Source of the DNA: Henricia sp. BOLD:AAB3569
Taxonomy: Eukaryota; Echinodermata; Asteroidea; Spinulosida; Echinasteridae
Assembly (NCBI GenBank): GCA_037783545.1
Contig: JBBELK010000315.1
Location: 620,001-684,000 of the forward strand
Length of the DNA: 64,000 nt
Direction: 5' to 3'
Below are positions 1,799 to 60,413 of the stretch, piece by piece (within the stretch, counting starts at the first letter, position 1; each line of letters opens with the position of its first letter). The notes below the pieces were generated by a model. It searched no databases and was not told the DNA's origin. It saw nothing but the letters and a program-made list of their open reading frames with translations. A program made the position numbers and the translations under genes.

Positions 1799-3397
1799 AG
1801 TTCCTGTTACAACAAGGTAATCGGAAAAGTTTCAAGGACTTCTTATTAACGAGGTTTGTCTGTATTTCGTCCTGCGTCAATTTCACACAACCCTTAACTA
1901 ACACAATTCCCAACCCAAATAATCCCCGCACCGAATAAACGATAAATTCTGCTAATGAGGCAATTAGAGGATACTCATCGCGGGAGTTATTGGAACTATC
2001 TCCAGGAAGAGCCAATTTGCAGCGTATGATCCGCAGGGAAACGGGCAAATTGAGCAAATAAATCACACTTGCGACGAACAAAGGTCATTTGAAATTGATC
2101 TCGAAATTGCACCACGGTAATTTCGCCAAGGTTGTGGCTATTCAAACCAGAAACCTCGTTTGATCTGTCGTATTAATTATACTTCTCAAAATTAGATATT
2201 GTAATTAACATATGTCATTTAAAATGACACAAAACACAAACGAAGAAACAAGACTTACATACAGGTGTAGACGTACAAAGTTGAAAAACACGTCCAACGG
2301 ATGGAGCAACACTTTCGAAGTATTGCCATAATAATGCACGAAGTACTTGTACCCCAAAACGTCATTTCTCGCCCAATTTTCGAAGAGTATGACGGTGCCC
2401 AAGGCATCGCTGCGATTGCCATTTTTTTGTGAATTTCGTATCCACTTTTTAGTGGGTCATGTTTCGTTTGTATATTAACCAATATTTACGGGTTATTGTT
2501 CAAACAATGTCTTTTGTTTCCTGGGTATAAATTATACTGGTGGCAGTATAATTATAAGCCTTTGTACTGGCACGAGTTTAAACACAATACATAGTTCCGA
2601 CCTGTCAATCAAGCCGAACCCGCCGACCAATCGCAACAAAGCTAGCAGACATCGCCCACATAGGTCAAAGTGCATTGCCTCACAGCAACATCACGCGATT
2701 TTCTGCCGATACAATTTACAGTGTTGTATGCGGTGTTCCAGGTGAATTTTTGGTTTCAAGGCCAGGCGATTCGCTGTTCAAAAGTAAGAAAGCACGCATT
2801 TCACGATGACATCCCTGTATTACTGGCCCTTTACTCAGTGTGTTCTAAGATAACTGTCGACCCTGAAACATGAATACCTTTGAGTTTTCTCCAGTGAATC
2901 TGTGCTTTCCGTTGAAGGTCCCATTGGTTTGTGCAGTGTGTGTCGCCATTTCAACGATAGCGTGTGAGGCATAGCAACAATATCCAAGGGGCGGGGTTAA
3001 TTGGGCAATCTCGGAACTATGCATTATCAGAGTTGCAAGACCATGATCCAGGCTTTGTGTAAACGCCTACCTTTTGCAACATATTTCATTTTAGGGTCCA
3101 AAGGACGCTTTATCCTGAGATTAACTGAAGGTGTGCAATGTAAAATTAAAGAGCTAAGTGTGGTTTACCCTTGAGAAAGATAATTACCCAGCAACCTGCG
3201 TTAATATTTCATTTCGTGCAGTAATAATACAGAAACGGGCAGCTCCTGGCCTTTCGAGTGAATTAAATAATGTACACTTTACTGTGTAAGGACAAACTTC
3301 ATAAAAAAATTCATTACACTGAAGAACGATGCGAAAATACCGGGTCCTATAGTTGTGATAGCTATATCAATTTTTCTTAATTAGTGTTGAAAATTAA
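1799..3397. other. No gene seen
   Basis: A+T-rich DNA with only short open frames lacking codon structure or recognisable motifs. No clear repeat units. Confidence 0.5.
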
Positions 3398-3747
3398 TTT
3401 TCCTTGAATTTTGTATAATTGGAAAGCCCTGTTATTACTATTTACAATGATGTGTTATTTGTTACGATTAAGCAATTGGGGATGTGCAGCACAGCTGAAT
3501 ATTGGGGTGGGTGTAAAGTGAAATGTCACAGAATGCATTGCTATTGTTAACAAGTGTATTGATACATTCCCATCCCCCAAGCAAAAGGGAATGCACTGCG
3601 TGACAATATCAGTGAATTTGTAACATTTCATTTTACACCCACCCCGGTATTCAGCTGTGCTGCACATCTCCCGATTGCTTAGTCATAACAAATGACGAAT
3701 AAGAAGAATAACAGGGCTTTCCAATGACGCCATGTTCAAGGAAAATA
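3398..3747. mobile_element. 350-bp inverted-repeat MITE
   Basis: Arms: TTTTCCTTGAA, a ~10-bp gap, TTGGAAAGCCCTGTTATT, then TTTGTTA...AAGCAAT and GATGTGCAGCACAGCTGAAT, all mirrored at 3590-3747. The loop is about 60 bp. The outermost 20 bp are more diverged than the core. Confidence 0.75.
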
Positions 3748-3936
3748 ATTGGGCAACAAGAGAGAAATTGTCGGTCAAACTTGAGTTTCCGAACAAAAAG
3801 ATATACTGAAAAGTAATAAAAGTAATACAAATGTATTATTTTGCAAAGACATTCTTCTACGACATGCCAATAAAAACAGTTTGTCCAGTACACGTACATT
3901 TTGTTTTATTCTACATAATTTCAAAGTCATTTTTCT

Positions 3937-4360
3937 CAGCGGTGCTCTGAGAGTGCCATCCTACTTGTCTGGTTACCGAAATAATTTATCTTACCAAGTT
4001 TACTTATAACATGGATTATGTCGACTTCCTAGACTTAATAAAGTCGACTTGGTCAGATAATTGATTGCCAAGTCGATACGTTGTTATGTCGACTTCCCAT
4101 ATTTGAATTAGTCGACTTGGGGAGACAATTTGTTGTCAAGTCGGTTTGACTTACATTATTACCTCGCCAAGTCGACTTTAGAAAGGCGACTTGGCAACAA
4201 AGATATCTCGTCTAGTCGACTTTATCAAATCAAGGAAGTCGACTTGGCAACACAAATTATCTGACCATGTCGACATGTTCCACATTATAAGTCAACTTGG
4301 TGAGATAAATTATCTCGGTATCTAAACAGTAATTGGGATGGCACTCAAAGAGCGCCATAC
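3937..4360. mobile_element. Inverted-repeat element with AAGTCGACTT array
   Basis: Terminal inverted repeats of about 24 bp with some mismatches (left ...GTGCTCTGAGAGTGCCATC, right GATGGCACTCAAAGAGCGCC...), extended by AATAATTTATCT and its complement. Between them, AAGTCGACTT-type motifs recur roughly every 30-50 bp in alternating orientation (4018-4300). Each pair encloses a short A+T-rich spacer ending in 'gataattgattgccaag'-like words. Confidence 0.75.
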
Positions 4361-5295
4361 AATACGTTGAACTTTTATCATTATAAAATTAGGTATTTAT
4401 TGAAGTCTTTTGTTGGGCAGGGGTGGCTCGAAGCGGCGACAAAGCCCCTACCCCTCCTATCTCTCCCCGTAAACTGTGTCAGCTCCTGTCACTTCCAGGG
4501 CAATTTTGATTAAAAGATCTACACACAAACTGACACCTGAACCGGCCTGGAAGTCAACAGAATCCGCTCACAATGACAGTATAAATTGAATAATTTTTTT
4601 CATTAAAGCACCGACTTCTGTAAAGCAGGTTTGGGCATTTTGGGAAAAAAATAAGGATCTGCGCCATTCCGTGAAAACGGGACACACCGACACAGTGATC
4701 TACTTACGTCGTGACACTTCTGGAGTTGATTTGTTTTTAATGAACACCTGGCTTCAGAGAACTCAAAACATGACTAGAACGATTCAATAAACTAGTGTGC
4801 TATTCAAAATTACAATTTTGCTCGCAATGTAATTTGGATTAATTATATTTACGACTTGCACGGTCGCGTTCAAAACGAGGCTTTCCTGGCATACGTCATT
4901 TTTTTAACAATGGACAAAAGTCAACGTCACAGCAACCTACATGGTAACGACGCGAGGGAGCCATAATTGTTCATGCAGGTATAGCCCCGCTGCTTTGCCC
5001 TATTCACGCAAGTGGTGAATAGGGTGGGTATAGACCAGCAGCTATATTTTCCAGAAATGAACTGGCAACAACAAAATAATCGTAAGACAGGCCCAATACA
5101 TCATTTGCAAGGTGAAACATTTTACTGACTTCTGGAATAAGGCATAACGTAGGCCTATTCTAAAGCAGAATGTTGGAAAACAAGCCTGCAGAAATTTCAG
5201 CCACATAGATGCATCAGTGTACTTGCGAAAACCTTTCAATCAATTCCATGGGGACATTGACCGGTTACTCACCGATGGTATGGGCAATCAGAATC

Positions 5296-16496: not shown

Positions 16497-16588
16497 CCAG
16501 GCCAACCACGCATTAATTAAATTGAAAACAAAGCACCCACCCTAAGAACATACCCGGACATAATTACTGAGTCGTGCGTACAACTTAC

Positions 16589-16804
16589 CGAGTGAGTTAT
16601 CAGGGCTGTCCGTAGGGTCGTGATAAACCTTGACGACAAAAATTAGAATGATGATGAAAATAACAGACGTGTTCAAATAGGACACGTAGAACGTGGCACC
16701 CAGGCCGCCAATGAACGTGTAGGCTCCGATAACAGCCGCTAATGTCATTGATGCTAACTCCAGGCTCAAGCCATCCACCAAGTTGGTTAGAACGGCGCAG
16801 CCAC
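16589..16804 (-). CDS. DUR3: DUR3-like symporter, exon 4
   Basis: A 216-bp exon (end of the split Gly codon, then residues 228-298 plus one base). The acceptor is TTTTTCCAG and the donor G|GTAAGT. It encodes GCAVLTNLVDGL, then helices containing AAVIGAYTFIGGLGATF and YLNTSVIFIIILIFVVKVY. The YTFIGGLGATF segment is the sodium:solute symporter core motif that precedes the next helix in DUR3 (YTLAGGLKATF in plants). The exon ends in phase 1, so at least one further exon is needed. The expected following block (a GNFGTVF-type motif) was not recognised on the minus strand between 1 and 16588, so the 3' exons probably lie beyond the left edge. About half of a typical 650-700-residue DUR3 is visible. 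Confidence 0.9.
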
Positions 16805-16969
16805 CTGGAAAAAGGCAACATACATGTGGATAAGTGCACATTATCAAGTATAACATGGCGCTTCACACTATTACCTGTCGCTGGCGTCGCCAGGCCATTT
16901 TAAATAGGGGTGGGGTGTGTGTGACCCATTGCCAAAGGTCTACGGACCATCGCAGAGTCGCTCAGCGTG

Positions 16970-17325: not shown

Positions 17326-17901
17326 CATGAGCTATAATCAAACACATAACACCTCCACTACCCTCACAGGTACCCATTGACGCATGGGTGGAGAGATAAA
17401 CGATGAATCATGAACTTACATAAAATAATGCGTATAAAGACGCATTGTGAACGAGACTAGGGCCCCGATTGCCGAAGTAATTTGGCTCCGCTTATCGTGC
17501 GAAATGTCTGGAAAGCATTGCAATTTTTTGGAACGTAGATAAGGTACTGAAGTGACACAGGTTGGATTTTATCACATACATTACCTTATCACACACTGAA
17601 ATAAAGCCGTTTGTTACTAGCAGATTTCTACTCTTTTAATCTACATTTAACATTTTTGGTCGTTGTCATTTAATATTAAAGATTAAGTGCTGGACAGCGC
17701 ATGGAGCTTTTTCTTTACTGCAAGACGAAGCTTTTCGGCGAAACGGCTGTCTTTCTGGCGCTTAATCCCGGGCACAACGGATCATACGAAATTGTGTCGT
17801 GGTAGACCCATAAAATAAGGTATGTGCCCGAAATCTATTTCCAGTGGTAACAAGGGCTACGACACAAATGCGTCGTGGGTTCGTTGCGACCAAGCATTTA
17901 C

Positions 17902-18112
17902 CTAGCATAAGCATGGCCGTCACGATGACGTTGGTCATCAGACCGAAAAAGCAGAAGACGAGGTGCGTGCGGGGGCCGAACCGGGCCATGATGACTTGCA
18001 GGAAGGTCTTGGCACCGGGGGCACGGGTCTTCATTTGGGCAGAGAGTGTGGCAAAGAGTAGCAGGGGTATGGTGGCACCGGATGCGTACCAGAAGGGGCC
18101 GCTAATGCCCGT
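17902..18112 (-). CDS. DUR3: DUR3-like symporter, exon 3
   Basis: A 211-bp exon (residues 157-226 plus one base). The acceptor is preceded by a pyrimidine tract and CAG, and the donor is G|GTAAAT. It starts with TGISGPFWYASGA, the conserved DUR3 loop and helix after the QWTWAA block. It continues through a hydrophobic helix, then RAPGAKTFLQVIMARFGPRTH (the cytosolic loop shared by DUR3 homologues) and a helix containing TNVIVTAMLMLG. It follows exon 2 in frame and joins exon 4 through a split Gly codon (G|GT). The protein similarity is strong over the whole exon, so this is a real exon and not a chance reading frame. Confidence 0.92.
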
Positions 18113-18611
18113 CTGCGAATGGGAAAAAGAGCATTATTGTAATGTAGTCAGATACACCAAATACACAGACTACACGCACCCCGAATTCTCCAATGTTAAA
18201 TGGAGGTGAATGCAGTTTAGAATGTCCACATACATGTATACACTACTCACAGCATTCCGATCTTGTGACAAGGTGTGTCTGTCATGCAGATTGTCTAATC
18301 ATTGTCTAATTATATACAAAATCATTCAAGCGGAATGCATACCCTCAATGAAATATATGCGTACACCCCACAATATCCCTAACTTATTGTGAGTAGTGTA
18401 TACTATGTTGTTGTTGCTACGGGTGCACGCTAATGCATAGCAACTAACAGTCTGGTTGCTTTATGCCGTTCTCTTCAACACGGTAATAAATCTGTACTTC
18501 ACTACTGCCGCGAGCACCCGGTCACAATTACATAGCACCAAAATTAGTCTTTAAAGTAGATATATGATAGGATTGACATTTAGAGATGAATTTAAAAACA
18601 CGAGAAAATTG

Positions 18612-18990: not shown

Positions 18991-19352
18991 AGGTGTGGTT
19001 GGAAATTCATGCCAACCCATTCACTATAGAGTTCATTATTATTATACTTGACCGCGCTGGTTTTTCCCAGGAGATTTCCCTGTGAGTTTTCCTCCCACTT
19101 TTAAAACTGCATCTCCTTCAGCTTCGCCGTCATCTCAAGTTGATAATAAAGTAAAGATGAGCTAATACATGTCCTGTATATAGTTGATAACACGAGGTCC
19201 TATAGCTACCGAATATGCCATAACATTATATAATCTACTACATTCGGTTTTATTAAGTTGTGTGAATTAATGAGATTTGGAAATCCATACTGAAATATGG
19301 CGAGAACAAAAAACTGTTCAAAAAAAACCAGACGATGCTACGTTTGGCTTAC

Positions 19353-19475
19353 CGTTGTGGCTACGGCCGAAGACTGTAGCAATGTGGCTGCCCATGTCCA
19401 CTGCGAAACCACGGTGGTAGCGGTCAGCCCCATGGACACCTGGCCACCAGCATCAAAGTCCGTGTCCAAATTAGC
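19353..19475 (-). CDS. DUR3: DUR3-like symporter, exon 2
   Basis: A 123-bp exon, exactly 41 codons (residues 116-156 of the joined protein), with acceptor CAG at 19476-19478 and donor GTAAGC, phases 0 and 0. It encodes the block ending in VVSQWTWAATLLQSS. From family knowledge this is the most recognisable DUR3 signature, which in plant proteins reads nearly the same (VSQWTWAATILQSS). It lies at the start of the second helix region, close to the predicted substrate path. The upstream DTDFDAGGQVSMGL matches the DUR3 segment before that helix. It is separated from exon 1 by about 38 kb and from exon 3 by 1240 bp. Confidence 0.9.
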
Positions 19476-20405
19476 CTGTATGGACATAGAACAAGGAAAT
19501 ATATATATAAGTAACATCACTAAAAGAACAATGTAAAACAAGCGAGTGGAAAAACAAAAGAAAAGTTGCCAATAATGTGCTTTCACGTTAGCAGTGGATT
19601 GAGTTGATGGATGTTATATGTGACATACCACGGCATAATGAGGAATGTCCCCTACATTTGACTTTTTGAGGTTTATGCATGAGAAGAAAGACTAGTTCTT
19701 CAGCTTTCCAATGACACCGAATTTATTTCTGTAACTTACCGCATTTTGGAAATTTGTTAAAGATGACACCGCGCATTGTCGTTACCAGAAAGACTTTTCG
19801 AGAAAACCGGCTTTGAAAAAAACTTGTGTTACACGGCTGATGCAGACGAAAATAAGAAAATCTCCTTTTTAACAAGTTTATTTAACATTTTGACAAAACC
19901 AACTACTCTAGGATGAATCTAGAATACTTATGCAATGTAAATATGCAAAAAAACAAAAAATCGATTGTGGACAAATTGTTCACGTATATTTAACTTCAGG
20001 CGCCGATTACGTGGTTTTAATATTTGAGGGACATTCCTCATTATGCCGTGGCAGGTCACATATATGAAGTCCCTAAAACGTACATACCCATTTTCAAATT
20101 CATTTTATCAAAAAGGTATTGACTATTTCAGAAAAAATACAAATATCTTTGGAAATATTAAAATGTACTCTATCTAATGGTATACATGTAGGTTTATAAT
20201 AATATATCATTGCCACGGATGACATCACGGATGATAAGGCAGCTGCGTAAGGTATTGAAAGCGGCACTGTGACAATTTTTTTACACCTTGAAAAAAGGGT
20301 CACAGTTGGAAATAACACAATCTTTCTATACAATAGTTTCTGACCAGGGTTCCAAACCAGAAATATTGTCCAGGATAGGTCAAACTACATCTGCACTGAC
20401 GAAAC

Positions 20406-24538: not shown

Positions 24539-25799
24539 TTAGTGTTTGTTACCATTGCAATCAAGACTTTTGGTCGGGTTTTTCTTGTCAATTGATGAAG
24601 TAAAACTTTGTGTAAATAAAACCAAACTGTAAAAACAAGCATGCGAATTTTCGACCGTATTCGCACAACCATACGTAACTTGATCAAGATCACAAACACT
24701 AGCCATTAATCAAAGATTTAACGTCCACAACCTTGACGGGTAAATATATTCCCCCCTCCCCCCACCCCCGTGGCTTTCGACCAGTTTTGCACGGTCCTTG
24801 GTATTCTCAATATAATTTGCCCAATCCATTTACCACTGATGTAAATAGTCCAATTTGGGTGCGACCATGCGGCGCCAATACACACTGATTACAATAGTGA
24901 GCCGAAGTGTGAAGTGTTGTCATGGTAATTTGCCCCAAACATCATGGCTGCCAGATACAGTGCCTCGGCAACTAACAAAAGGGTGACGTATTCACTTCGG
25001 CAGTCTATTAGCCTTCTGCGTGTAATATTTGCATAATGGCTGACTCCCCGAAATCTTCACTTTCAATTGGATGTGCAGTTTAGAAAGTCACTTATCCTTT
25101 TAACACAATCAACGATTACACCAATATAATTATTGGGAAGATCACGGCTTGCAGCTGTGACCTAGTTTATTCAGCTACCTCACATGTCTTATCATGTACA
25201 ATCCAGTCACTTTGATCATAAAGTTGTCTAAAAGCGACTTGATGATTGTTACGATGCAAAGTAAACTTGTCTGTTAAGCAAAACCCCTTAACAAACCGAA
25301 GATCATCGCCGAGTGTGATCAGACTGCTAAAAATGTGCACATTTTAACAGTTGCTGTGTTGGTTGCCAGATACAAAAAACCACAAAAACCCATTAGTTAG
25401 GGCATTTTAGCAAATTTTCTAGCCATCTGTGAAAAAATTGCTTACCAATAGCTTTCTTCACCAATGTGTTCATATTGGTGTATACTAACACCTCTCAATT
25501 TATTCCAAACCAAATCCACTGGGAAAATTCTTGGGAGCCAATCAAAGTTGGGCTACACGGAGGGCCTGGGCAAAAAAATTGAAAAATAAAAATTTGCCAA
25601 TATTAGCTTGTGGGATGTCTATCTAGGGGTTTTGGGGGGTGCTGAAACGAATCCAACCATTAGTTTTGAGTAAAAACAACTCCCTGTCCATAAAAAAAAA
25701 AAATATATAAAATATATTTTATAAAAATCTTACAAGCAGAAACAATTAAAATCTCGATTAGTCAGTTGAAACCTCGATTAGTCAGTTCTCTAGTTCACC

Positions 25800-27600
25800 C
25801 TACTCATCGAACTCACCGGCATCTCCCTCACTTCTCTCGTCATCTGGCTGGTAGATGTTCTGGCAAGAGTTACCATGACAGTTGCCGCAAGCAGAAATAC
25901 ACTTGACTCCTTGCTTTTTACAGCAGCACCTGAGTGTGCTACAGCCCCCCTCACAGTTGCAGCTGACAAATTTCAGAAGATAGTCCGGTGCAATGGGGTC
26001 TGTTGAAGGGACCGGCGCATAACCTTGGTCACCGAGCTTCCCATCCGTAGTCCAGGACATCCAATGATGGATTTTGCAGCACCAGCCAATCTCTAGTCTG
26101 GAGATAAGCCCGGAGAGAGTGCTGTGCTGCAGCTCCTGTTGTCGGGGGCAGTACGTTTCTCAGGTTTGATGCTCCCAGCAGCGGCCCGCTTGCTGAAGAT
26201 GTCAAATCTCAAGTCCCCCAAGTCTTTGGTTGGTTTCCTGCGGAACATGAGCTTGAAGAGTTCACAGCCAGCTTTGATGATGTCATCTTTCTCGGCTCTG
26301 ATGTCCAGAAACACGTCCATGGCCCATTCCGCTTTGTCAGTCTTGCAGAGCTTGTTTAGCAAAGTTGATTTGCTAAACCCAGAGATCGCAGACACTGTAT
26401 CACAGCCGGAGAAGCTGTGCAAGAAGATCAGATACTTCCGGTATCTCTCTGGGAGGGCCTCCCGGATCTTTCCGACATCGTAAGATGTTTATTTGGCTGT
26501 TGTGGGGAAGATCGGGTGGTCTGCAGCATGATGAATCAGCTATAACCATGACGTCGGTGTCCTCAGCCCTCACCTCAACATGCGACTCTCTTGTCTCATC
26601 TAGAGCTGCCCGGACAATAAAGGTGTCCGCATCATCGGGGCATTGCTGTACACTGATCCCATTTCTACCGAATGTCTCAGCAAGTAGCAGAATGGGCTGG
26701 GCCATGTTGCTCTTGTTGTCGAGGAACTTTTCTCTTGGAACGATGCCTTTGATGTCTGGGCAAATCAGAGTGTTCGTCTCAGGTGATCATGGTCCTGCAT
26801 GGTGGAGCTGCCGTATCCGTCAAAGACCACAGTGATCCGGAGGCACTGGCTCCCCATGGACTTCACAAACAGGAGGTAGCTCTCGGCGATGTCCTTCCAG
26901 GTGAGGTTAGCCTCCCACCTGACATTGTGCAGAAGCCACCCACCATCAATCACAAGGCTCGTGTAGGGGCGGTTGTTCAACGGGTTCCACAAATGCCTTC
27001 AGGACCCTTGCTATATAGGGCAGCCTTGTCTGGCTTTCGCAACTTCTGGTGTTTGTCAAATAGAGACATCGGTGTTGGCGTCAACTCAAATCGCAGGGCT
27101 TGTTTGGTCTTGATTTCTCGCTCATTAATGATGATGATGCGGTTGAAGAGCTTGAGTGAGCCACTAATCAACTTCATCCCACTGACTTTGGGTCCACCTC
27201 TGATGCTCTTTAACGATTTGACCTTGTGCTTAGTTTCCATTGTATCCAGAACAGTTTGTCCATCCATCTTGGCCTGTATGGCTCTGCCAACCTCCTCTGC
27301 CTGATCAGCGTTGACTGGGTCTTCGGGAGTGCTACTGAACCCCGTGGAGAAGGACACCAGGGTCTACCTGTCCCGTGTTGCATTGAAGGGGTTGACCTCC
27401 TCCAACCATCCAACAATGGCGTTGACAGCATCATCGTCTTTCCTTATCTGGGCCCACGTTTGTTCATGCCTCCTTCCAGCTCTTGGTGAATGAACGAGAA
27501 GTGGTTTAGCGTCTGAACCCAAGACTCATGAGCAGATTCGTTTCGGAAGCGTCCTCTGTTCAGACCGCCTGAGGACTTGGCCTCACACAGGATGCACAGG
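25800..27600 (-). pseudogene. Decayed PIN/FEN-like nuclease + CXC-domain gene, left copy
   Basis: Minus-strand relic of a multi-copy animal gene family that I recognise by sequence but cannot name. In order: an N-terminal stretch (27600-27360; GGLNRGRFRNESAHESW, FIHQELEGG, VGWLEEVNPFNA); a FSTGF...VGRAIQAKMDGQ block; the helical SLKLFNRIIIINEREIK...LTPTPMSLFDKHQKLRK block; a PIN/FEN-like nuclease region with acidic positions in VIDGG, FDGYGSST, DDADTFIV and AEDTDVMV; HSFSGCDTVSAISGF; and a C-terminal CXC (tesmin/TSO1-like) domain with CNCEGGC...CCCKKQGVKC...CGNCHGNSC. Private damage: a 4-bp TATA insertion near 27014, a 19-bp deletion near 26777, and a +1/-4 pair near 26520-26550. It extends 0.3 kb further 5' than the right copy. 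It is not translatable as one protein. Confidence 0.75.
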
Positions 27601-27601
27601 T

Positions 27602-29107
27602 GGTTGGCAGAGCCATACAGGCCAAGATGGATGGACAAACTGTTCTGGATACAATGGAAACTAAGCACAAGGTCAAATCGTTAAAGAGCCTCAGAAGTAG
27701 ACCCAAAGTCAATGGGATGAAGTTGGTTATTGACTCACTCAAGCTCTTCAACCGCATCATCATCATTAGTGAGCGCGAAATCAAGACCAAACAAGCCCTG
27801 CGATTTGAGTTGACGCCAACACCGATGTCTCTATTCGACAAACACCAGAAGTTGCGAAAGCCAGACAAGACTGCCCTAGCAAGGGTCCTGAAGGCATTTG
27901 TGGAACCCGTTGAACAACCCCCCTGCACGAGCCTTGTGATTGATGGTGGGTGACTTCTGCACAATGTCAGGTGGGAGGCTAACCTCACCTGGAAGGACAT
28001 CGCCGAGAGCTACCTCCGGTTTGTGAAGTCCATGGGGAGCCAGTGCCTCCGGATCACTGTGGTCTTTGACGGATACGGCAGCTCCACCATGCAGGACCAT
28101 GATCACCTGAGACGAACAAAGAACGCATGCTGCAACACTCTTATTTGCCCAGACATCAAAAGCATCGTTCCAAGAGAAAAGTTTCTCGACAACAAGAGCA
28201 ACAAGGCCCAGCTCATTCTGCTACTTGCTGAGACATTCGGTAGAAATGGGATCAGTGTACAGCAATGCCCCGATGATGCGGACACCTCTATTGTCCGGGC
28301 AGCTCTATATGAGACAAGAGAGTCGCATGTTGAGGTGAGGGCTGAGGACACCGACGTCATGGTTATGCTGATTCATCATGCTGCAGACCACCCGATCTTA
28401 ATTCCTCACAACAACCAAATAAACATCTTACGATGTCGGAAAGATCCGGGAGGCCCTCCCAGAGAGATACCGGAAGTATCTGATCTTCTTGCACAGCTTC
28501 TCCGGCTGTGATACAGTGTCTGCGATCTCTGGGTTTAGCAAATCAACTTTGCTAAACAAGCTCTGCAAGACTGACAAAGTGGAGAGGGCCATGGACGTGT
28601 TTCTGGACATCAGAGCCGAGAAAGATGACATCATCAAAGCTGGCTGTGAACTCTTCAAGCTCATGTTCCGCGGGAAACCACCCAAAGACTTGGGGGAATT
28701 GAGATTTGACATCTTCAGCAAGCGGGCCGCTGCTGGGAGCATCAAACCTGAGAAACAGCCCCCGACAACAGGAGCTGCAGCACAGCACTCTCTCCGGGCT
28801 TATCTCCAGACTAGAGATTGGCTGGTGCTGCAAAGTCCATCATTGGATGTCCTGGACTACGGATGGGAAGCTCGGTGACCAAGGTTATGCGCCGGTCCCT
28901 TCAACAGACCCCATTGCACCGGACTATCTTCTGAAATTTGTCAGCTGCAACTGTGAGGGGGGCTGTAGCACACTCAGGTGCTGCTGTAAAAAGCAAGGAG
29001 TCAAGTGTATTTCTGCTTGCGGCAACTGTCATGGTAACTCTTGCCAGAACATCTACCAGCCAGATGACGAGAGGAGTGAGGGAGATGCCGGGGAGTTCGA
29101 TGAGTAG
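27602..29107 (+). pseudogene. Decayed PIN/FEN-like nuclease + CXC-domain gene, right copy
   Basis: Plus-strand mirror copy of the gene at 25800-27600, starting abruptly at VGRAIQ. It has the helical block (27600-27860), the PIN/FEN-like region (27920-28390; FDGYGSST, CPDDADTSIV, AEDTDVMVML), HSFSGCDTVSA (28489-28520), a GCELFKLMFRGKPPKDLGELRFD segment and the Cys-rich CXC C-terminus (28940-29060), with a stop at 29105. The PIN region is broken by TGA at 27951-27953 where the left copy has a Trp codon. Two frame breaks, before the YDVGKIREAL block near 28430 and near 28860 before the DGKL segment, are shared with the left copy, so they predate the duplication. The acidic pattern fits a metal-dependent nuclease by family knowledge, but this copy cannot make it. 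Confidence 0.75.
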
Positions 29108-29199
29108 GGTGAACTAGAGAACTGACTAATCGAGGTTTCAACTGACTAATCGAGATTTCAATTGTTTCTGCTTGTAAGATTTTTATAAAATATATTGTA

Positions 29200-29453
29200 T
29201 ATGGGTCTTTCTATAAATTAGGGGTCCAATGTTGGTGTCCCCCGTTACATTTTACATCTCGTTTTTGTAAATTCAGGACGCATTCTTTAAATACTTTCCA
29301 TCTCAAAGAGTGAGTACATAAAGTACAATTCATAAAAAATGGTTTAAAAGCCATTTTAATGATTTTTGTACGAAAAATAACACATAATATCAGGTGTAAC
29401 GGGGGACACTAAATGTCACACTTTTGGACCCCTAATTTATAGAAAGACCCATA
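29200..29453. mobile_element. 254-bp MITE inside the right arm
   Basis: The ends are terminal inverted repeats of about 28 bp (left TGGGTCTTTCTATAAATTAG, right its complement). Just inside are a second inverted pair (gtgtcccccgttaca and its complement). The flanks are TATA-rich (ttgTATA at left, TATAtata at right). The left arm of the inverted repeat (near 25700) keeps the uninterrupted site, which proves insertion after the arm duplication. No coding capacity. Confidence 0.85.
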
Positions 29454-31119
29454 TATATATTTTTTTATGGACAGGGAGTTGTTTTTACTCAAAACTAATG
29501 GTTGGATTCGTTTCAGCACCCCCCAAAACCCCTAGATAGACATCCCACAAGCTAATATTGGCAAATTTTTGTTTTTCAATTTTTTTGCCCAGGCCCTCCG
29601 GGTACCCCAACTATGATTGGCTCCCAAGAATTTTCCCAGTGGATTTGGTTTGGAATAAATTGAGAGGTGTTAGTAGACACCCATATGAACACATTGGTGA
29701 AGAAAGCTATTGGTAAGCAATTTTTTCACAGATGGCTAGAAAATTTGCTAAAATGCCCTAACTACATTGGGAAAAGTGGAAACGTACGCCTGACCTATGC
29801 AAACCAACGGCTTTCAGGCCAGCAATGCAACTGATAAAATTCTGAAAAACACAAAATTTTAGCGATGTGAGAATGCCCAACACCCGTGAACACCCCTTAT
29901 TTATCAACCCCCTAGAGCACTGAACCGTTGCTCTTACGTAACAAGGATAAAGCAGATTTATTCTAATTCACCGGGGCTCAAACGAATAAATCTATATCCT
30001 ATGGGGCCGCCCAAAGTTGTCAACATTTTCACGGAACTACAAAGCGTAGGAAGGAGGCGAGAGGAGCGAGGTCGAGGGCCACGTACGACTATAAATGTAC
30101 TGTAAAATGTGGACATTTCACAGTAGTGACAAAAATGTTGATAAGTACATGTAGTATTTAGGAGGGAGGGAGGGGAGTCTTCTCTCTGTAGAACCGTAAA
30201 AATGTGGGACGGCCCTTATGTTATACTAGCTCTCGGAAAACTCATTTTGTTGGGTTTTCAACTTGATTAACCCTAACACTCCTCAATCCTCCACAATCAA
30301 TATGGTTTTACATACAGCATAGAGTGTTAGGGTTAAAGCCGCGTGGCATGGGCTGACATCTGGAGTCGCGCGTTTTAAAACAGCACTAAGTGCAGGAGCT
30401 CAGTGAGGCACCGTCAGGCAGAGTGGCGCCTCCTACCTCGGCGGCTCTTACGGAGGCCGGTACAGTCAGCCTTGTCTCAAGAGGTATTTATACACGTGAT
30501 TATCCAATAAAATGTTACATCTCTCAGCCCCCTCGATGTTTCGGTCGGAGTGTTGTTGTTTGAAGTTTTTTATTTAATTGATTTGATTTGATTTGATTTT
30601 TGATTTGATTTTTTGGTGTGGTTTTTTGGTGTTTTGTTTTTACCATATACATTGCATTCCATGCCCGGATTACATGTCTCCCATCTTCACAATGCGCATT
30701 AAAATAATGCAAATTATCACGAACCACCTATAGTAAGCATTGAGACACACGGGTGTTCCGATGTTGCAAACGGACGCGCTACGGGAATTAACAAACCATC
30801 CCTAAAAATCTAATCAAATTGTCTTCGATTTAAGTTATCTGATGTGGACACGATCAGTTGTAATTAAAACCCCACACGGTTTTAAGCAAAGTGCTTAGCC
30901 AGAGATCAAGATTTCCCTTGGGTACCATGTCCACGTTTAATTATCATACACCGCGCTGTAACTTGCACATGGGTTGGCGCCAATCCGCAGACGATAATAC
31001 AATGTTTCGTTGATGCCTACACGCCGGATTGAAGCTCAGATTGCGCATTTTGTCACACTTACGATCTTATCTCTGAAGACAATACATTATAATATGTCGG
31101 CACGCGCTCAACTTGTCAC

Positions 31120-58036: not shown

Positions 58037-60413
58037 TCCTTAATGTACGTTAACAATTGAAGGTTCCAGGTGGTCAAAAAATGCGGCTTACATTTACAGC
58101 TGTCAATCAAACGAATAGTATTGCCGCGATTTTCTAAACTCTCCGTTTAAACAAATCCCTGGGTATTTTGACAAGTTATTGATTTCCTCACGTGGTTGGC
58201 TTCCAATATCCGGCAGAAGTGTTGAAAGCTATGTCACGCAGTCTGAAGCAGACGAAAACGGAACACGAACGTATTTCACGAACCATCAAGTTTTCCCGCC
58301 CTTGGAGCACCCAGATACATCATCAGACGACTTTTAGGATGCTGACCATTTTATTTAGCCGGCGTAAATGTTCCGATTTCGAATGGAACCACTAGCAGTT
58401 AATGCGAGGCAAGCGAAGCTCGGTTTTGCAAGAAAAGAGCAAAGTCTTCGAGGTAAACGATGGCAGGCAGACTGGAATTAATATTTTCTGTAATTGAAAG
58501 TAGTTATCTTCGTCGAATTCACAAAAAAATACGAATTCTTTCGCGGCAGAGTACTCGAGAGCGAAGCAAACTAATACACCTACAGCCTTGGCCTACATGG
58601 CAGACCTTTTTAATCCGGTTGTATTTTTGTTTCTCTCAAAAAGGGGCCACCACTCAGTAATTGTCGAGAGACCGTTCCAAGTGTTATGCGACCGTCTTTC
58701 TCATCTTGCTGCAACGAGGTGATTTGATTGAGTGCAAAATTGGGAAGAAAGATTTAGCCCGCTTCGTGAAAAAATACTCATTAGCATTCTGCCCATTTGG
58801 TAACACATTCAGGCAAGCGAAATCATACAGCACGTACCCTCCGACTGCGCACGTACCATGCGACGTGTGACAGTGATCTTGAATCTCCGTGATTGGTCGC
58901 TTGCCATTATGTGCGCGTGCCCGACAATACGTAATCATAACAGATGTGTAACAACCGCCATAGAAAATATTTGTAGAACTACAATTTTTATACGCATGCT
59001 ACATGGATACAATGTGAACACTAATCTTCTAATCAGAAATTATAATATTTATCATTGTTCGTGACCGATATAAATTAGGAACATTTTGTATTTCCTCACA
59101 ACTTGATTTCTTTATCGATGATGGATATCAACGATAACCAGATACCAAAATTAGGCATACCAAAATTACCAATATTATTATTTTTTTTTCAATTTAACTT
59201 GTGTGAAACCCATGGCTAATAAGTCGCTATGTAAACAAAAAGACAGCTGTCCGAGTCCTGCGAAATGCGAAGAACAAACGACGCTTGGTGGCAGCAGACT
59301 CGATTCTTGCACCGCAAGGAGCATGCAATGTGGTAGGTAAACTGGTTTCCAGTCCACATACTCGAGGATACTTCTACCCAACACATGTGCATTAGGCTTG
59401 GGCGATTCCATTCGGGAATCGAGTAGAATAATCCACCTTAGGAATCGGAATCGCGATTCAAGATTTCTGAGGAATCGATTCCCAGTAACCGATAACCTTT
59501 TAGCAACTGACATTCGATTCCTAGTTATTATAACTTGCCGATTCTAGAAATTACCAAGCAATTTCGTACCCAAAACACTTGACTTCTGCAAGAGTATTCA
59601 GCCTCTAATAATCTCCTCATTATAGGAACGTATGTGTGGCACAGGCTGACATCATTTTATAGACGCTCGGTGCCAACAAATAGGTCGCCATCTGCACAAT
59701 ATGCAGTATCGTCAACGTAAGCTTGGTTTCCATATCATCGCAACAAACGCAGACAGTACCGCAAACTAGACGTAAACTGCAACGCAAACGGTCGGCCAAG
59801 TTGAATCAAGTTTAACTTTTCCGATTGTTTCCGTCAGTGTGTTACGATGATGTATGGAAACTAGGTTCTAAATACGCTAAATGTAGTTGTAGTGTTTCCC
59901 GTGAAAATGGAATCGATTCCGAATCGAATGACTCCGAAAATGCTGGAGTCACCCAAGCCTAATGTGCATGTACTCTTAGTTAGTGGGTATACGTGCGATC
60001 CACATTGCACTCTAGCATGCCGAATTTAGGGCGTTCACGGTAGCCACAGCCCATTTTCTCTCATGCCCTAAACAGTTCGCGGCACGTGACCTTTTCCCCC
60101 TGCTGGTCAACGTTTTCCATCTACTTCAACAGCCTTTTGTGCTCAGTCCCAAACGATTACTTAAAGGATCGTGTCAGATTTTTCACAACAAAAAAAGATT
60201 TCGTTCAAATCTAACAATCATATAAAATAATGTTCCAAATTACTATCCATGGGAGGAAAAACAGGAAATTTTCAATCCCCAATTTGGATGTGGAAGCAAA
60301 ACGGTTGAATGTGACGATAAACAAATTGGCCACTCCAACAATTACTTTTTATACCAAAACCGTCAATGTCCAGCGCGCTTGCCTTGTGTAAACGTCCGGG
60401 CATAGCTAGTTTT
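58037..60413. other. Upstream of DUR3 exon 1: no second gene seen
   Basis: The transcription start and promoter of the minus-strand gene should lie here, but no TATA box or other element can be assigned. Open frames are short. At 59395-59480 and 59905-59960 are related inverted words (taggcttgggcgattcc / ggagtcacccaagccta, and GGAATCGATTCC-like) that bound a ~560-bp probable MITE. Confidence 0.45.
60161..60360. mobile_element. TTAAAGGATCGTGTCAGA MITE, partial
   Basis: Left end TTAAAGGATCGTGTCAGA and the 'caatttggatgt' block shared with 43120-43396. The right end is not identified. Confidence 0.55.

Follow-up and report, generated by a model that had tools for sequence, protein, structure and literature searches.

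A mobile palindrome in a sea star genome, very probably a foldback derivative of one end of a DDE-type DNA transposon

The 64,000-nucleotide stretch of Henricia sp. DNA analyzed here (the window; contig JBBELK010000315.1 of assembly GCA_037783545.1, positions 620,001 to 684,000) contains a 4371-bp palindrome at 25394-29764. We found that this element is very probably a non-autonomous foldback derivative of a group of DDE-type DNA transposons, one that arose as an inverted duplication and was mobilized in trans. The arms make up 4078 bp of the element when a nested insertion is counted, and with that 248-bp insertion left aside they differ by 45 substitutions over 1897 aligned sites. The gene pieces in both arms point away from the loop and are split over several frames. 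An earlier note on this DNA had described two long, similar head-to-head arms around a loop of approximately 0.3 kb, with a decayed gene in each arm, and our analysis confirmed that anatomy. The parts of the palindrome are as follows.

25391-25393: left target-site duplication, CAT
25394-27300, minus strand: left arm, 1907 bp, with the transposon 3' terminus (TAGTTAGGGC...), the 3' flank and the broken last third of a transposase-like gene, reading leftwards
25800-26159, minus strand: left-arm gene piece with a cysteine-rich C-terminus (CXC-like, named by eye), which matches the C-terminal part of the relative L047
26093-27363, minus strand: left-arm nuclease-like region in frames 26093-26488, 26400-26786, 26765-26998 and 26977-27363 (the last extends into the loop), matched in tblastn from the relatives L047, L048 and L049
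27301-27593, minus strand: loop, 293 bp, further parental gene sequence continuing the gene of the left arm up to the end of the DDE-like region (matches L047 residues 232-280)
27594-29764, plus strand: whole right arm, 2171 bp including the 248-bp nested insertion
27594-29202, plus strand: inner part of the right arm, the inverted copy of the gene pieces, in frames 27573-27953, 27954-28511, 28423-28878 and 28703-29107
29203-29450: 248-bp insertion nested in the right arm and bounded by inverted ends of its own (GGGTCTTTCTATAAATTAGGGGTCCAA), also present in the sister copy on contig C1261
29451-29764, plus strand: outer part of the right arm, with the same terminus as the left arm (GCCCTAACTA)
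29765-29767: right target-site duplication, CAT

The nested insertion (29203-29450) resembles a small non-autonomous DNA element in its own right.

Both outer ends of the palindrome start with TAGTTAGGGCATTTTAGC, and CAT stands directly outside each. A search of the assembly (740.7 Mb in 2104 contigs), restricted to the best-scoring candidates so that all counts are lower bounds, placed this family, family A, at no fewer than 24 separate loci including the window; eight copies on contig C47 were counted as one insertion repeated within a large duplication. Both arm orientations were present at at least 19 of the 24 loci among the matches listed, and one orientation only at C226:137k, C340, C258, C886:107k and C118. 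Perfect 3-bp target duplications flanked 10 of the 12 family A elements having both termini, and all ten were different (CAT, GTA, TAT, AAG, TCT, TTT, TGA, GTT, CTT and TAG). In two related families described below, B and C, such duplications were found at two of three elements each (two weaker terminus matches, L043:1390 and L050:2031, were left out of this count), which gives 14 of 18 over the three families.

Movement is shown by the copy on contig C1261, which matches the window element at 99.2% identity over its full length and carries the same nested insertion, but lies between unrelated flanks within a different duplication (GTA). The whole palindrome therefore moves as a unit, and has done so recently, after gaining the nested insertion. 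The element thus combines very long inverted repeats that span nearly its whole length, a target duplication of fixed length at dispersed copies and transposition as a unit, as expected of foldback-type transposons. The earlier note had seen an inverted copy of a spreading gene family; the family has indeed spread, but in the form of a foldback transposon scattered over the genome, both arms of which are copies of a single transposon end. The presence of family A at 24 loci rules out a gene duplication confined to the window site.

The copies on contig C47 (L005-L008, L014-L021, L056 and L057) form an arrangement of their own: eight copies of one family A insertion, approximately 100-330 kb apart, share the same left flank, and a 7.7-kb stretch is 99.8% identical between two of them, which may reflect a large duplication, an array or a feature of the assembly. 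Frames of 254-386 codons flank these copies.

A protein search from a right-arm piece identified distant relatives with longer frames. Three of them, L047 (contig C485), L048 (C972) and L049 (C2), encode an upstream part, then a nuclease-like part and then a cysteine-rich tail. By eye, the motifs of the upstream part read as those of a DDE-type transposase. Acidic motifs were likewise read by eye in the nuclease-like part; they would follow a FEN/PIN pattern and may link it to XPG, but no Pfam, NCBIfam or PDB sequence match was above cut-off. The labels "PIN/FEN-like" and "CXC" accordingly denote motif readings. The arms in the window correspond only to approximately the last third of the relatives' gene, and the loop extends this match upstream as far as the end of the DDE-like part. 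Since both arms lack the upstream part of the gene, its promoter is probably absent from them as well. Uninterrupted frames of at least 1165 codons were found at 23 places among the related families, and on contig C37 a single frame of 1458 codons was matched by both the upstream and the downstream queries. Four places (contigs C71, C480, C1037 and C638) hold related 1466-codon frames that scored equally or almost so, which suggests that another family of the group has been recently active.

The transposon group is most likely AcademX, judging from 3-bp duplications (10 of 12 elements in family A, two of three in each of families B and C) and from the gene make-up. AcademX elements are described as producing target duplications of 3 or 4 bp and encoding a nuclease, and AcademH elements as producing duplications of 9 or 10 bp and encoding a helicase (PMC10045372). 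The 3-bp duplication here falls within the AcademX range given there (PMC10045372), and the related intact frame on C37 holds the upstream and nuclease-like parts together in its 1458 codons. The window copy differs from such an element in lacking the upstream transposase part and one end, and in being a palindrome of the 3' end. Very long inverted ends also characterize Galileo and other foldback-like transposons of Drosophila; however, Galileo belongs to the P superfamily, whereas the element described here has two copies of one end and is one of four related families in a single genome. Our literature search returned no paper treating Academ and XPG jointly and, among the matches listed, no title describing a foldback, palindromic or long-inverted-repeat Academ element. 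DUF6589 did not occur among the Academ matches listed, nor was there a relevant title among those listed for CXC, PIN and foldback. The window element is a real and well-formed palindromic transposon of the foldback type, and it stands out because four related families of one genome share this form and its polarity.

Three further families, B, C and D, which are relatives at approximately 30% protein identity, are also palindromic. In family B, with termini TAGTCCAGTC, the arms of L043, L044, L045 and L046 are 97-99% alike; L050 is partial and L051 single-armed. A 484-codon frame beside one family B palindrome (L044:6048-7499, minus strand) has a weak likeness to Transposase_21 (E = 0.024, under the cut-off). 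Family C, with termini TAGGCCAGTA, includes five palindromes established by sequence (L052, L053, L054, L055 and L058), and by the strand of matches both orientations occur in 13 of 15 places, the exceptions being C62:2282k and C307:199k. Family D is represented by L060 (contig C76), the arms of which are 94-99% alike except for one piece at 88% and which carries a part of the gene lying further upstream; contigs C242 and C903 have the same opposite-strand pattern, as judged from coordinates only. The polarity is constant in all four sequenced families, the 5' side of the gene lying toward the loop and the 3' side toward the outer end. Because the centre breaks differ from family to family, we infer that families A-D became palindromes separately.

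For family C, a single-copy parent is present in the same genome. L049 is approximately 96% identical to the family C palindromes and ends at position 5180 in the family C terminus. The palindromes run from this end back to position 3439, switch strand, and then run forward from 3302 to 5180, so that a 137-bp stretch forms the loop; most of them also carry one-arm sequence absent from L049. The same junction, in which a single unmatched base separates the two pieces of the parent, was found in four of the five copies within the limits of the search, and the alignment of the fifth, L055, which the junction search missed, breaks at the same place. Either a strand switch or end-joining between two broken 3' halves could have produced this junction in a single founder that later multiplied. 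Near its 3' end (4619-5153), L049 has subterminal repeats of approximately 180 bp that are about 80% alike and recur in the C palindromes; these are possible candidates for transposase binding repeats.

We propose that such a palindrome would arise when a parent copy undergoes an internal break or strand switch that leaves its 3' half duplicated in inverted orientation. The same terminus would then stand at both ends of the product, so that a transposase acting in trans would recognize it as a whole element and mobilize it. The family would have spread while its arms were nearly identical; decay would have followed, accompanied by some sequence exchange among arms or copies, and any hairpin RNA would be a by-product of read-through transcription from the host.

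The history of family A is broadly consistent with this sequence of events. Divergence was averaged over eight of 13 element entries, leaving out C1261 (the sister of the window copy), C47b (a duplicate) and C634, C615 and C622 (one arm short). The left and right arms of one element differed on average by 3.06%, and arms of different elements by 3.53% (left-left), 3.37% (right-right) and 3.60% (left-right). No alignment column separated left from right arms of these eight elements at a threshold of 75%, and recent private changes numbered 248 in one arm only and 12 in both arms. On these grounds the arms appear to have been nearly identical while family A spread, and recent exchange from arm to arm appears to be rare. 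The exception is the pair C93 and C422, whose left arms differ from each other by 2.21% and right arms by 1.68%, whereas the two arms within each element differ by 2.53% and 3.37%.

Two lesions in the gene subdivide the family. Among 16 aligned arms, a stop codon is present in 11 (three have another codon, one is deleted and one diverged); at a frame break, 12 arms carry the longer version. Both lesions occur in all readable arms of the window copy, C30, C1512, C47 and C494, in the right arm only of C93 and C422, and in neither readable arm of C485. The shorter version at the frame break is carried by the left arms of C93 and C422 and both arms of C485, and the stop is lacking in the left arms of C93 and C422 and the right arm of C485. 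Furthermore, the right arms of C93 and C422 are mosaic at 13 marker columns, five in the main-lineage state, four in the other state and four in a mixed or third state. The stop and frame break thus appear to mark a later sublineage, and the founder of family A may have been open-framed; it is likely that arms or copies exchanged some sequence or that a second palindrome arose. A founder that was already broken and whose arms never exchanged was dropped in view of the lesion-free arms of C93, C422 and C485 and the mosaic right arms. The DDE-like part is missing from the arms, and the readable arms of five elements have the stop codon and frame break in common. The lineage of the window copy thus spread while already broken, and its movement required a transposase in trans.

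Several observations weigh against this account. No transposon protein was identified by a Pfam or NCBIfam match above the curated cut-off or by a convincing PDB sequence match; the best Pfam match was ING (E = 0.0015), and DUF6589 matched L049 at E = 0.07, both under the cut-off. The name AcademX therefore rests on the length of the duplication and the make-up of the gene, in which the transposase and the nuclease are motif readings. Four of the 18 elements in families A-C lack a perfect 3-bp duplication, among them C615 and C622, which are family A elements with both termini. No parent or transposase source of family A was found with the upstream half of L047, which gave seven matches on four contigs, all in distant relatives (L047 itself on C485, C972, C2 and an 85-codon frame on C616) and none in a palindrome, and the upstream query of L049 met family B inside palindromes only and so yielded no family B parent; such protein searches would miss a palindrome of the 5' end that has no coding sequence, and the assembly may lack parts of the genome. 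In L049 itself the frame consists of two overlapping pieces, and its 5' terminus was not obtained. A probe for the family A junction matched 18 of the 26 stitched entries, eight of which are C47 duplicates, and the version in C93, C422 and C899 has five differences. A single founder with simple later decay is too simple, since the lesions and the 13 markers split family A into sublineages.

The earlier note had proposed a self-limiting circuit, which we examined as a silencing hairpin locus: host read-through would produce a long hairpin RNA that Dicer processes into small RNAs against intact family members, as in an animal counterpart of Mu killer. We consider this unlikely as the explanation of the window element. 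According to the published account (PMC3440606), Mu killer of maize carries one MuDR end twice, together with part of the transposase gene in inverted duplication, and silences MuDR. Taking both ends from one transposon end and inverting partial copies of the transposase gene (PMC3440606) is the layout that we met in families A and C. The genome encodes Piwi domains (15 matches on three contigs) and a Dicer-dimer domain (one match, E = 2.5e-4), and the palindromes outnumber the parents found in families A, B and C. Non-autonomous elements, however, often outnumber their parents without any silencing. The absence of the upstream part of the gene, and so probably of its promoter, from the arms also speaks against a hairpin locus, the excess of one-arm over both-arm private changes (248 versus 12) argues mildly against a maintained circuit, and no family A parent was found as a target with the upstream-half query.

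Mu killer itself differs in several respects. In that account, it is one dominant silencing locus with TIRA ends that carry promoters and with the start of the gene near the ends, its antisense transcripts start inside Mu killer, and read-through from a flanking gene accompanied a failure to silence (PMC3440606). The window element has the 3' side of the gene outward and is multi-copy and mobile. A literature search for hairpin small interfering RNAs in the context of sea urchins gave nothing relevant.

Perfect matches of 21 nt delimit what such a hairpin could act on. Within the window, 1187 of 1887 left-arm 21-mers are perfect in the right arm. For 12 further family A entries, the fraction of 21-mers also present in the window hairpin ranges from 33% (830 of 2510 in C634) to 91% (3972 of 4343 in C1261); L047, L048, L049 and L059 share none. 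In family C, five hairpins match the parent L049 perfectly at 1034-1277 of 1859 21-mer sites. Judged by perfect matches, the window hairpin could thus target its own family. The members found of that family are palindromes and fragments, and the silencing idea is better tested in family C, which offers a matched parent and hairpin in one genome. A parasite and a silencer could be distinguished by ordinary small-RNA data.

A broader and somewhat less probable version, which we regard as speculative, is that the group repeatedly bears one-end palindromes that act as roaming animal "Mu killers": spread by the parent transposase, they would land in transcribed genes, yield small RNAs against the parent message and outlive the parent. 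If this were true, the constant 3'-outward polarity and the unfound parents of families A and B would be its footprint. These families also bear on whether transposon debris can silence its source. With palindromes formed on the same side of related transposons in four families, with different centre breaks, they amount to a natural experiment on the origin of foldback elements.

That the arms instead encode a useful truncated protein, such as a transposase repressor, with the palindrome providing two copies, is very unlikely. Frames of 492 and 495 codons persist in one arm of two family B elements, a family A arm on C634 retains 478 codons, and the absence of the stop and frame break from some older family A arms allows that the founder was open. 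However, the longest open frame is 118-394 codons in the 16 aligned family A arms, and most of these arms carry the stop (11 of 16) and the frame-break version (12 of 16). The window copy and its recent sister lineage are among the carriers and nevertheless spread.

An assembly or long-read fold-back artefact, a possibility that the earlier note had raised and of a type known in long reads (PMC12870357), has a negligible probability and is ruled out along with chance, given the arm differences (45 substitutions and the 248-bp insertion), the CAT at both ends, the junction common to copies at separate loci and the occurrence of the same palindrome elsewhere with other 3-bp duplications.

The foldback element lies upstream of a DUR3 urea transporter gene or within it. 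Three pieces of this gene were recognized on the minus strand.

19341-19613, minus strand: most upstream recognized exon piece of the DUR3 urea transporter, aligning from approximately residue 64-75 of solved DUR3 chains (E = 4.3e-6)
17765-18133, minus strand: DUR3 exon piece (solved DUR3 chains, E = 3.9e-22)
16545-16862, minus strand: piece resembling sodium/solute symporters that probably represents the next exon of DUR3 (match to TIGR00813 at E = 6.3e-8, short of the curated cut-off)

The palindrome is approximately 5.8 kb upstream of the first recognized exon. The earlier note had placed the element in intron 1 of DUR3; the gene is real, as the matches to solved chains indicate, but the intron placement was not confirmed, since two crude scans, one for motifs across the whole window and one for hydrophobic minus-strand frames between 19.6 and 64 kb, gave no exon upstream of 19341-19613. 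The element may thus lie in DUR3 intron 1 or upstream of the gene. At approximately 57.6-58.0 kb on the minus strand, a frame starting at 58039 has hydrophobic stretches and perhaps encodes a membrane or secreted protein of another gene.

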